Shown: positions 3,938 through 7,485 of the stretch, one piece after another
How the letters are laid out: every line of letters starts with the position of its first letter
Numbering within the stretch: the stretch's first letter is position 1
NCBI GenBank assembly: GCA_017390645.1
Contig: JAFPAZ010000288.1
Span: 1-7,505 of the forward strand
DNA: 7,505 nt
Reading direction: 5' to 3'
Source: Lachnospiraceae bacterium
GTDB taxonomy: Bacteria; Bacillota_A; Clostridia; Lachnospirales; Lachnospiraceae
The notes under the pieces: generated by a model
Database searches by the model: none
What the model was told of the DNA's origin: nothing
Seen by the model: only the letters and a program-made list of their open reading frames with translations
Translations under genes and position numbers: made by a program

Positions 3938-4010
3938 GCTGATATAGCTCAGGAGGTAGAGCGCAACATTGGTAGTGTTGAGGTCACGGGTTCGACTCCC
4001 GTTATCAGCT
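3938..4010 (+). tRNA. tRNA-Thr (anticodon GGU)
   Basis: The 73 bases fold into a perfect cloverleaf. The acceptor stem is GCTGATA/TATCAGC, the D arm GCTC-AGGAGGTA-GAGC, the anticodon arm CAACA-TTGGTAG-TGTTG, the variable loop AGGTC, and the T arm ACGGG-TTCGACT-CCCGT. All stems are fully paired. The anticodon GGT at 3971-3973 reads ACC and ACU threonine codons. The discriminator base is T, and no CCA is encoded (TTA follows), so CCA must be added enzymatically. The gene has its own promoter upstream and a terminator five bases downstream, so it is a single-tRNA unit, although read-through transcripts from the sigH operon are likely too. Confidence 0.96.
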
Positions 4011-4014
4011 TTAC

Positions 4015-4038
4015 AACTCCTGGAAGGGAGTTTTTTTT
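4015..4038 (+). terminator. Rho-independent terminator after tRNA-Thr
   Basis: AACTCC (4015-4020) pairs with GGAGTT (4027-4032) around a six-base loop, and a run of eight T residues starts at 4031. It lies directly after the tRNA and is the only good terminator visible between rlmB and the LCP gene, so it probably also ends the cysE-sigH operon transcript. Confidence 0.88.
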
Positions 4039-4149: not shown

Positions 4150-5511
4150 ATGAAAAAAAAGAGCAAAAAAGGTCTTATATTCGTTGTTATTGCGGTGATT
4201 ATAGTTGTGATTTTTGTGAAAAAATCAAAAAACAAAAAAGAAGATAAACCAGATACTACGAAACAACCGATTACCATAGAAAATAGGGATGACGGAATTT
4301 TTGTTACGGCGATGATGGGCGAAAATACCACGGTTGGTGGGATTGATTACTTTATTGTTAAAATTTTTAACACGGAAACAAATAATCTGGATTTTGTGGT
4401 GATTCCGGAAAGATGTTATCTTACGATGTCTTCCGAATGTTATCAGACATTAAGTAGTAAAAACGCTGATTTGATGGCCAGCATGAATTTATCCAGTATT
4501 GCATTGTATTTTAACAAAGAAGCCAGATATGAAAATACGATTATTGCATTGGAAGATATCTTAGGGCTTGAGGTGGACTATTATGAAGTGTTTAGCGAAG
4601 AAGAGTTTATTCAGATGATTAATCTTGTCACACCATTAAATTATGATTTAAAGACAAACATTTCGTATATTAACCGAAAAGGTGTCAGTGTAGAGGTACC
4701 GGCGGGAATGCAGTATATTGATGGTGAGAACGCATTAGCCATAATTAAAGCAGAAGATTCCTATGAGTCAAAAATAGATCAGGCAAATGAAATGTGCGGA
4801 TATCTGAACCAGTATTATTCTTTTATTTTTTCTTTGAATTCATTGGATAAATTAAAAGAATACTATTCTTATGTATTTGAAATTATGCAGTCTGATGCGG
4901 TATACGATGATTATGCTCCTTATTTAGAAAAGCTATATAATGTAAATCCGGATGAGATTTCTTTCCATATTGTAGTAGGTGGATTAGTTGAAGATGGACG
5001 TTATTTTATTGACTCTGTTCAAATGCAACAGCTGGTTCAAGAAATTATAGCAAAGCCGGCAGGTGCAGGAAAAGAAGTGATTTCTACAGAAGATCCTTCT
5101 GCTTCAACTTCGGAAGGAGACAGTAGTGAAGAAAATTCAGATGATACTCAAAGTACTGAAAATACAGAAAACACAGAGCAGAGTACAGAAGAACCAGCTA
5201 CTGAGCCGGAAGAACCACAAGGAATGAGTACAAAAGAGGCTGTCATTCAGATCCAAAATAGTACTTTCGTAAATGGTCTTGCAAAGAAATGGCAGACGAA
5301 ACTGAACACAGATGGATATCAGGTTACCAGCGTAACAAATTATAAAGGTGGAGGCGGTACTTTAGAAGCTACGAAGATTATTGTGAACAATGCTTCTTTA
5401 GGAGAGGATTTGAAGACCTACTTCCCATCTGCCACAATTGAGACAGGTGAAGTACCTGCGGGATATGATGTTGTAATTATCTTAAGTTCACAGGATACAA
5501 CAGTAAATTAA
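4150..5511 (+). CDS. Membrane-anchored LCP-family protein with LytR_C domain; LCP active site degenerate
   Basis: The start is ATG 4150, preceded by GGAGGG (4137-4142), giving 453 residues; an in-frame upstream TTG at 4075 has no ribosome binding site and would add a polar leader. A basic N-terminus and one membrane segment (about 8-23) predict an inside-N, outside-C anchor. Residues about 48-228 follow the LytR-CpsA-Psr pattern: GGIDYFIVKIFN, FVVIPERCYL, IIALEDILGLEVDYYEVFSEEEF, GMQYIDGENALAIIK. A Ser/Thr/Glu/Pro-rich linker (about 302-358) leads to a LytR_C-like domain (about 363-447: NSTFVNGLAKKW, LNTDGY, YDVVIILSS). Active LCP enzymes move wall polymers from lipid carriers to peptidoglycan using conserved arginines. 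Here the Arg of DRSDT is Gly, PRDT reads PERC, RYR reads IKAED, and the later GRxxRQ stretch reads SKIDQANE. Family membership is fairly sure; transferase activity is doubtful. It lies 56 bases before a probable partner gene, with no terminator between them. Confidence 0.82.
   Translation: MKKKSKKGLIFVVIAVIIVVIFVKKSKNKKEDKPDTTKQPITIENRDDGIFVTAMMGENTTVGGIDYFIVKIFNTETNNLDFVVIPERCYLTMSSECYQTLSSKNADLMASMNLSSIALYFNKEARYENTIIALEDILGLEVDYYEVFSEEEFIQMINLVTPLNYDLKTNISYINRKGVSVEVPAGMQYIDGENALAIIKAEDSYESKIDQANEMCGYLNQYYSFIFSLNSLDKLKEYYSYVFEIMQSDAVYDDYAPYLEKLYNVNPDEISFHIVVGGLVEDGRYFIDSVQMQQLVQEIIAKPAGAGKEVISTEDPSASTSEGDSSEENSDDTQSTENTENTEQSTEEPATEPEEPQGMSTKEAVIQIQNSTFVNGLAKKWQTKLNTDGYQVTSVTNYKGGGGTLEATKIIVNNASLGEDLKTYFPSATIETGEVPAGYDVVIILSSQDTTVN
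5152..5193 (+). repeat. Imperfect in-frame repeat coding Thr-Glu-Asn/Gln units in the LCP linker
   Basis: Codons 335-348 of the LCP-family gene read STENTENTEQSTEE, made of imperfect ACA-GAA-AAT-like nine-base units. The stretch lies within a longer low-complexity acidic Ser/Thr linker and probably forms a flexible extracellular spacer. Codon variation within the units argues against very recent expansion. Confidence 0.6.
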
Positions 5512-5567
5512 TCCCGAAGCTTAAAAATACTCGAAACTGTTGTAAATATAGCGTTGAGGTGTCTCAT

Positions 5568-6218
5568 ATGCATAATAAAAAAAGTATTTATGAACTTGAA
5601 TTTGACTGCATGTCAGAAACAAAAGCAGAAGAATTGGTTGAGAAATATTTTTCGTCAGAACAGATACATTTGATTTACTATGTGGAACCGAAATTGGTTT
5701 TAACTGATTTGAGTGAAGAAGAAATTTCTTTGATTCAAAGTGCGAAATTGGTAATGGCAGTTCAGACGGAATTATATGAAGATTTACAAAGTGCAAAAGA
5801 AAATTATAGTAGAATTGTAAAAGGAATTGAATTTCTGAAAATTATCAGCACTTATGTAAAGAAGAAGAAAGAAAAGGTGATTGTTCTTTCTTCTTCAGAA
5901 GAAGATTGTGAGGCATTTATGAGATTCCTTCATCTGGATAGGAATTTATGTAAAAATATAATTGTTGCGCAGATGAAGGAAACAGATATGGATGGTTTTG
6001 TGAATGAAATGAACATGGACATGGCTCCTGTTGTTTTTTCTTTGATGCAGCATGACATCCAGATAGAATTTATCAGAAATTATGTGGATAAACTGGATAC
6101 AAAAATGGTAGTTATGCTGGGAGACAGCCTGGAATACATGAAAAAATCTGAAAAGAAGATACATAAGATTTTGAAAGCATTACACATTGGCAAAAAACAC
6201 TACAATTTGCCGAAATAA
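5568..6218 (+). CDS. Uncharacterised protein, possible degenerate WecG/TagA/CpsF-fold protein
   Basis: The start is ATG 5568, with GAGG at 5556-5559 eight bases upstream; an in-frame GTG at 5559 overlaps that site and is less likely. The product has 216 residues, is acidic and Lys-rich, and has no signal peptide or membrane segment, so it should be cytoplasmic. I do not recognise it with certainty. Read against WecG/TagA/CpsF glycosyltransferases, the segment order matches from end to end: IYELEFDCMSETKAEELVE as the opening strand-helix, QIHLIYYVEPKLVL where TPNAE is expected, SAKLVMAVQTELY where the PDG motif is expected, EKVIVLSSSEED for the VFLLGG strand, then APVVFSLMQHDIQIEFIRN for the LFVGLGAPKQEKWI stretch and KMVVMLGDSLEYM for GVGGAFDF. 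Every signature residue is replaced, so catalysis is unlikely. It follows the LCP-family gene with no terminator between and probably shares its transcript. The family link is inferred from pattern only. Confidence 0.5.
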   Translation: MHNKKSIYELEFDCMSETKAEELVEKYFSSEQIHLIYYVEPKLVLTDLSEEEISLIQSAKLVMAVQTELYEDLQSAKENYSRIVKGIEFLKIISTYVKKKKEKVIVLSSSEEDCEAFMRFLHLDRNLCKNIIVAQMKETDMDGFVNEMNMDMAPVVFSLMQHDIQIEFIRNYVDKLDTKMVVMLGDSLEYMKKSEKKIHKILKALHIGKKHYNLPK

Positions 6219-6372: not shown

Positions 6373-7485
6373 ATGGCAAGTTTATCTTTAAAGAATATTT
6401 ATAAAATCTATTCAAATGGATTTAATGCAGTAAAAGATTTCAACTTAGAAGTTGAAGATAAAGAATTCATCATCTTCGTAGGACCTTCAGGATGTGGTAA
6501 ATCTACTACACTTCGTATGATCGCTGGTTTGGAAGATATCAGTAAAGGTGAATTGTGGATTGGTGATAAGTTGGTAAATGACGTAGAACCAAAGGATAGA
6601 GATATCGCTATGGTATTCCAGAACTACGCATTGTATCCACATATGACAGTATATGATAATATGGCATTTGGTCTTAAGATTAAGAAAGTGCCAAAGGATA
6701 AGATTGATAAGCAAATTCATGAAGCTGCAAAGATTCTTGATATTGAACATTTGTTAGATCGTAAACCAAAGGCTTTATCCGGTGGTCAGAGACAGCGTGT
6801 TGCTATGGGACGTGCTATCGTTCGTGAACCTAAGGTATTCTTAATGGACGAGCCTTTATCAAACCTTGATGCAAAGTTAAGAGTTCAGATGCGTATCGAA
6901 ATTTCAAAGTTACATCAAAGATTACAAACAACTATCATTTATGTAACTCATGACCAGACAGAAGCTATGACACTTGGTACAAGAATCGTAGTATTGAAGG
7001 ATGGTATCATTCAACAGGTAGATACACCACAGAACTTATATGATAAGCCACAAAACTTATTCGTAGCAGGATTTATCGGTTCTCCGGCTATGAACTTCAT
7101 TGAATGTAAGGCTGTTAAGTCCGGTTCTGACATTTTATTAATGTTCGGTTCTCATTCTATTAAAGTTCCTGAAGGAAAGGCTATTAAGTTAATCGAAGGA
7201 AATTACATTGACAGAGATATTATCTTAGGTATCAGACCAGAAGATATCCATGATGAACAATTATTCATCGAATCTTCACCAGAAAGTGTAATCGATGCTA
7301 AGATTAATGTATACGAAATGTTAGGTGCTGAAGTTTACTTATACTTTAACATTGACCAGTTTGATATTACTGCAAGAGTTAACTCTCGTACTACTGCAAG
7401 ACCAGGAGATACTGTTCAGTTAGCATTCGACTTAAGTAAGATTCACTTATTCGATAAAGAGACTGAAAGAATTATCGTTAACTAA
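6373..7485 (+). CDS. ABC importer ATPase of the MsmK/UgpC/MalK (carbohydrate uptake, CUT1) type
   Basis: Cytoplasmic ATP-hydrolysing subunit that powers sugar uptake by binding-protein-dependent importers. The 370 residues match the family. The nucleotide-binding domain (about 1-235) has Walker A GPSGCGKST 37-45, the Q-loop VFQNYALYPHMTV with Q83, signature LSGGQRQR 135-142, Walker B VFLMDEP 155-161 with catalytic E160, D-loop SNLDA 163-167, and the switch His H193 in VTHDQTEAMT. GFIGSPAMNF (233-242) leads into the C-terminal TOBE/regulatory domain with GIRPEDI (286-292), typical of MsmK/UgpC/MalK. All catalytic residues are present. The ATG at 6373 is preceded by AAGGAGGAG. No permease or solute-binding gene adjoins it in the window, which fits an ATPase shared by several sugar transporters; the substrate cannot be told. 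Codon choice (many CGT, TTC, ATC, AAG) differs from the upstream genes and suggests high expression. Confidence 0.93.
   Translation: MASLSLKNIYKIYSNGFNAVKDFNLEVEDKEFIIFVGPSGCGKSTTLRMIAGLEDISKGELWIGDKLVNDVEPKDRDIAMVFQNYALYPHMTVYDNMAFGLKIKKVPKDKIDKQIHEAAKILDIEHLLDRKPKALSGGQRQRVAMGRAIVREPKVFLMDEPLSNLDAKLRVQMRIEISKLHQRLQTTIIYVTHDQTEAMTLGTRIVVLKDGIIQQVDTPQNLYDKPQNLFVAGFIGSPAMNFIECKAVKSGSDILLMFGSHSIKVPEGKAIKLIEGNYIDRDIILGIRPEDIHDEQLFIESSPESVIDAKINVYEMLGAEVYLYFNIDQFDITARVNSRTTARPGDTVQLAFDLSKIHLFDKETERIIVN

Follow-up and report, generated by a model that had tools for sequence, protein, structure and literature searches.

The genes at positions 4150 to 5511 and 5568 to 6218 of a 7,505-nucleotide stretch of Lachnospiraceae DNA (the window) raise the question of what two neighboring homologs of wall-polymer enzymes might do after the loss of their catalytic residues, and whether they do it together. 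All genes in the window lie on the + strand, in the order cysE-like, cysS, mrnC-like, rlmB-like, sigH, tRNA-Thr(GGT), gene 1, gene 2, and ugpC, wherein the names cysE, mrnC, and rlmB were assigned by us from Pfam domains. The tRNA-Thr(GGT) gene (3938 to 4010) is located between sigH and gene 1, and a terminator-like hairpin (4015 to 4032, recognized as a pattern match) immediately follows it and separates genes 1 and 2 from sigH. Because of this hairpin, a new transcript may begin at gene 1. No promoter signal was evident inside the two-gene unit, wherein 14 sigma-70-like matches compare with a mean of 10.8 (SD 3.5) for shuffled sequence. A genome from goat cecum (L001) carries an identical gene order, and its gene 2 product is 80% identical to that of the window. 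Those relatives that carry a name derive from metagenome-assembled genomes of Lachnospiraceae.

Gene 1 (4150 to 5511) encodes a 453-amino acid, membrane-anchored, degenerate LCP protein with a C-terminal LytR_C domain, which we call pLCP. An N-terminal membrane helix is predicted for residues 7 to 25 (4168 to 4224) from the helix in the structure model and the hydrophobic sequence, which together suggest the topology. An LCP fold spans residues 49 to 303 (4294 to 5058), and a LytR_C domain is present at residues 366 to 446 (5245 to 5487). The protein thus shares its anchor, fold, and terminal domain with LCP-LytR_C glycopolymer ligases of the TagT/LcpA/CglA type, but differs from them in lacking the arginine of the IPRD motif and the RxR pair, where the window protein carries Glu, Lys, and Glu. 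In an alignment, these arginines are found in none of 19 pLCPs versus all six canonical LCPs, and the RxR positions are gaps in 14 of the 19. The wider family, detected in 40 of the 299 genomes sampled from the L001 family, shades down to LytR_C-only remnants through stepwise erosion of the LCP core, such that LytR_C is the sole domain above its Pfam cut-off in two members (L154 and L156). The mycobacterial proteins VirR and Cei (Rv2700) likewise carry LytR_C only, but these are actinobacterial, and the window pLCP still has an LCP-like domain.

Gene 2 (5568 to 6218) encodes a 216-amino acid protein, which we call pTagA, whose predicted structure has the WecG/TagA/CpsF (GT26) fold over residues 3 to 194; model confidence is low from residue 198 on, and the alignment to TagA stops at TagA residue 199, ahead of the C-terminal appendage that bears Arg221. 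It scores below curated cut-offs (18.8 of 27.4 bits for Pfam and 30.7 of 350 for NCBIfam TarA), and a relative (P0017) does pass the Pfam cut-off. In the Thermoanaerobacter italicus enzyme, Asp65 is the proposed catalytic base and Asn39 and Arg83 are on the acceptor side (PMC6493773). The aligned window residues at TagA positions 65, 39, and 83 are Val, Glu, and Ile. Moreover, the window has Val65, Gln66, and Thr67, with no acidic residue at positions 60 to 67 and the first at 68. Gln165 (TagA Gln167; 6060 to 6062) is a retained pocket residue that, like the fold, is shared with TagA/TarA (WecB/TagA/CpsF), whereas the three lost residues, the sub-cut-off scores, the genomic setting, and a new invariant Asn148 set the window protein apart. 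Thus, the preliminary description was correct in reading the upstream gene as an LCP homolog without the expected arginines and the downstream gene as a TagA/WecG-fold protein without its signature residues, and the structure prediction for the 216-residue protein does not reveal an unrelated fold.

To place this protein among its relatives, 299 genomes of the L001 family were sampled. Matches were found in 121 genomes at E ≤ 1e-8, and in 130 with a wider profile at E ≤ 1e-5; about 107 of these 130 have pTagA as best match, and 23 have matches only in the range of intact TagA. The loci analyzed comprise 120 of the 136 match places, chosen by match rank rather than at random, together with the window and L001, which amount to 106 pTagA and 16 intact TagA loci. 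For six of the 120 (L050, L061, L083, L107, L126, and L136), gene context was judged by coordinates. In a tree of 73 rows (23 intact TagAs, the 21 pTagAs accompanied by pLCP, and 29 of the 85 that lack it), pTagA is separated from the rest by a branch with SH-aLRT support of 100.

The members of this clade share a sequence signature. Two asparagines in an N-x-x-N motif, which correspond to TagA positions 148 and 151 (window Asn146 to Asn149; 6003 to 6014), are invariant in all 106 pTagAs. Among intact TagAs, Asn148 is seen in only three of 16 from the family and three of 18 from the class, and Asn151 is common in both sets (10 of 16 and 17 of 18, respectively). Intact TagAs of the same sample retain the DG motif in 16 of 16, Asn39 in 15 of 15 readable cases, and Arg or Lys at position 83 in all, where six of the 16 have an alignment slip at Asp65 (five Pro, one Val) with the DG motif present nonetheless. 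The 18 top-ranked class-level TagAs all have Asn39 and Arg/Lys83, and 17 have Asp65, with Glu in L193. Two of the 106 pTagAs (L121 and L136) have Asp at aligned position 65, but without Asn39 or Arg83. The pTagAs are thus degenerate TagAs forming a single clade, in which Asn39, Arg83, and the Asp65-bearing DG motif have been lost and an invariant Asn motif has been gained. The fixation of a new asparagine alongside the loss of catalytic residues argues for a new role rather than decay.

Three other ideas were examined and set aside. One was that pTagA is a subunit of an intact TagA; a second family match (E ≤ 1e-5) occurs in 16 of the approximately 107 pTagA genomes and is missing from about 91. 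Another was an intact TagA in the nearest genome (G001), where a search yielded the ortholog of the window gene and a false SDR match but nothing else. A scan of viral contigs found no relative of the window protein that would indicate phage origin.

One role that might have survived is glycosyl transfer to another substrate by a rebuilt active site. Among the 94 pTagAs tallied with their gene context, 69 retain Gln167 and 68 retain Glu168. Position 65 is Gly/Ala in 69 of these, and positions 39 and 83 are re-fixed, with Thr/Ser at 39 in 74 and Glu/Asp at 83 in 67. In a separate tally of 79 pTagAs without pLCP, 71 have Glu/Asp at 83. An acidic residue follows at position 66 in 68 of 79 pTagAs without pLCP and in 12 of 21 with it, and the catalytic base could conceivably have shifted by one place (65 to 66) in pTagAs outside the lineage of the window. 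This acid in most pTagAs counts against a non-catalytic reading, although the window itself has Gln66. Set against continued catalysis are the loss of Asn39, Arg83, and the DG motif, the Val65-Gln66-Thr67 sequence of the window, and the reported effect of Asp65Ala in T. italicus TagA, where activity falls from 1.5 to 0.052 μM/min (PMC6493773). We therefore consider an active enzyme unlikely. Even ligand binding is doubtful for the window and L001 proteins, since they define the longest branch of the pTagA tree (2.29) and have also lost Glu168.

The preliminary description had proposed that the two genes form a dedicated unit. In one form of this proposal, pLCP would sense conditions outside the cell and pTagA would relay the signal inside. 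pLCP is indeed present just upstream of pTagA in 21 of 106 pTagA loci, directly adjacent in 19 and with a small gene between in two (L133 and L140), and these loci make up two groups that branch early in the pTagA tree. Two changes of the pLCP label suffice on this tree versus a mean of 18.3 when shuffled, which, together with the early branching, suggests that the pairing may be old and was later lost. However, 85 of the 106 pTagA loci lack pLCP, and 19 of the 40 pLCP genomes have no pTagA at the locus. The best leftover ORF at these 19 loci matches the pTagA profile with E 0.02 and is on the other strand (L173). Co-occurrence across genomes is mild (21 with both, 19 with pLCP only, 86 with pTagA only, and 173 with neither; Fisher p 0.02, uncorrected for kinship). 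A dedicated trans-membrane pair is thus improbable in our estimation. The survey of adjacency that the preliminary description called for therefore came out divided, and of its overall interpretation the folds, the residue losses, purifying selection, and adjacency in 21 loci stand, whereas the private partnership is not supported. pLCP and pTagA seem better described as accessory genes of a shared locus than as partners dedicated to each other.

The small gene encodes a protein of approximately 140 to 185 amino acids that starts with a hydrophobic helix and carries a GSxxDPL[IV]T motif after it. It lies between pLCP and pTagA at L140:3526-3969 and L133:8924-9460, and after pLCP, in the place of pTagA, at L172-L174 and L176-L179. 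The L140 protein has no Pfam match at E ≤ 0.01, and the L133 protein has only matches below cut-off.

The constant element is instead the block of genes downstream, of which the DNA available to the preliminary description included only ugpC. YitT, UgpC, CdaR, FtsE, or FtsX is encoded just downstream of pTagA in 100 of 106 loci, and for 94 of these 100 it lies within the first four ORFs on the same strand. Where complete, the locus reads pTagA-(YitT)-(UgpC)-CdaR-FtsE-FtsX-M23 peptidase-CtpA, and the first seven downstream ORFs of the 100 loci include CdaR in 89, FtsE in 84, FtsX in 84, the M23 peptidase in 69, and CtpA in 82. Three of the six exceptions are at contig ends (L064, L102, and L127), and three have other genes downstream (L070, L075, and L095). 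By comparison, the block is absent next to 15 of 16 intact TagAs, and the sixteenth has only a stray ABC ATPase match. We take the BLAST match to "FtsE" at L153 to be another ABC ATPase. pLCP keeps to the same place. It occurs at the conserved locus in 39 of its 40 genomes (the contig of the other ends too early), and at all 19 loci lacking pTagA at most a few genes separate it from a downstream YitT, UgpC, or CdaR, where the UgpC-like ORF of L181 is cut by the contig end. Thus, across the sampled family, pTagA and pLCP occupy the same conserved place ahead of CdaR-FtsE-FtsX-M23 peptidase-CtpA.

In L001, FtsE, FtsX, and the S41 protease score above NCBIfam cut-offs, and the CdaR and M23 proteins score below them, with best matches that agree in kind; the M23 peptidase is of the coiled-coil type. 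The first gene of the block in the window is a ugpC-type ABC ATPase (6373 to 7485; 506.6 bits for the NCBIfam UgpC subfamily, cut-off 432). Because the window lacks YitT and has a 154-bp gap between pTagA and ugpC, co-transcription of pTagA with the block is only putative there. Some members of the branch that lacks pLCP have, upstream of pTagA, a gene resembling the SH3 plus NlpC/P60 hydrolase of L046 (L046, L048, L049, L051-L053, L055, L067, L085, and L115), which adds a further wall-cutting gene to this place.

Conserved gene order can reflect shared expression alone, and the position upstream of FtsEX may simply be inherited, with each gene serving a different process of the envelope, perhaps together with YitT. 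In 39 of 100 loci pTagA is immediately followed by YitT, and in 32 the two overlap or are no more than 10 bp apart. As the tightest neighbor of pTagA, YitT is the likeliest single candidate for a direct partner. At one of the 18 class-level loci (G530; L206:4857-6484), YitT also comes directly after an intact TagA, with no FtsEX in the 14.5 kb covered, hinting at a possible old TagA-YitT tie. Yet pTagA remains upstream of the block even where YitT is missing, and in 46 of 100 loci it is directly followed by CdaR, which makes the absence of any functional tie to FtsEX an unlikely explanation, about on a par with an active enzyme.

Both genes might also be decaying remnants, as the lost catalytic residues and the LCP cores eroded to LytR_C (L154 and L156) would suggest. 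However, reading frames are intact, the N-x-x-N motif is kept in 106 of 106 pTagAs, and the dN/dS between the window and L001 is 0.12 for pLCP and 0.12 for pTagA. Decay is therefore very improbable. The corresponding values for neighbors are 0.01 to 0.06 for four genes and 0 for ugpC, and thus pLCP and pTagA are both under purifying selection but are less constrained than the genes around them. Both are also dispensable, wherein pTagA was detected in about 107 and not found in about 190 of the 299 genomes, whose completeness is unreported.

The explanation we favor, although we hold it at somewhat short of an even chance, is based on gene order: pTagA and pLCP would be non-catalytic helpers that tune FtsEX-controlled peptidoglycan hydrolysis by the M23 enzyme. 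In Bacillus subtilis, FtsEX is reported to control the CwlO hydrolase (PMC3817527), and the locus described here likewise encodes FtsE, FtsX, and a coiled-coil M23 peptidase, but neither pTagA nor pLCP is a known component of that system. As helpers, pTagA would be membrane-peripheral at the cytoplasmic face and would act as an adaptor or as a sensor of a ligand such as a sugar nucleotide. It would retain some of the pocket on the donor-sugar side (Gln167 and often Glu168). Its new Asn face would bind a partner, most likely YitT or FtsE/FtsX. Outside, pLCP would be a membrane-anchored scaffold acting via LytR_C, as has been proposed for mycobacterial VirR (PMC11832169), and an LCP-LytR_C protein is reported to affect septum placement in Streptomyces (PMC11481543). 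The two proteins would tune the timing with which FtsEX lets the M23 hydrolase cut peptidoglycan, and they need not touch one another.

A bolder version, which we judge quite unlikely, is that a widespread family of former TagAs traded its acceptor site for the Asn-x-x-Asn face to become a cytoplasmic gauge of nucleotide-sugar wall precursors that gates FtsEX, with a retired LCP-LytR_C protein as its outside arm in some branches. If true, this gauge would couple wall hydrolysis directly to the supply of wall polymer.

We found no description of this locus or of a pTagA/pLCP family in titles or abstract openings of open papers, a search that left most subscription journals uncovered. Conserved former wall-polymer enzymes at an FtsEX locus are a concrete, testable candidate for FtsEX switching in Gram-positive gut bacteria, and the same family bears on how cells coordinate the synthesis of wall polymers with wall cutting. 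The family also matters for annotation, because many pTagA genes would receive teichoic acid or polymer glycosyltransferase names by family match despite missing key residues. pTagA alone should therefore not count as evidence of wall teichoic acid in such genomes.

Finally, the UgpC protein (6373 to 7485) is identical in the window and L001. The dS of ugpC is only 0.25, versus 0.66 to 1.47 for flanking genes, suggesting either gene conversion or strong selection on codons.
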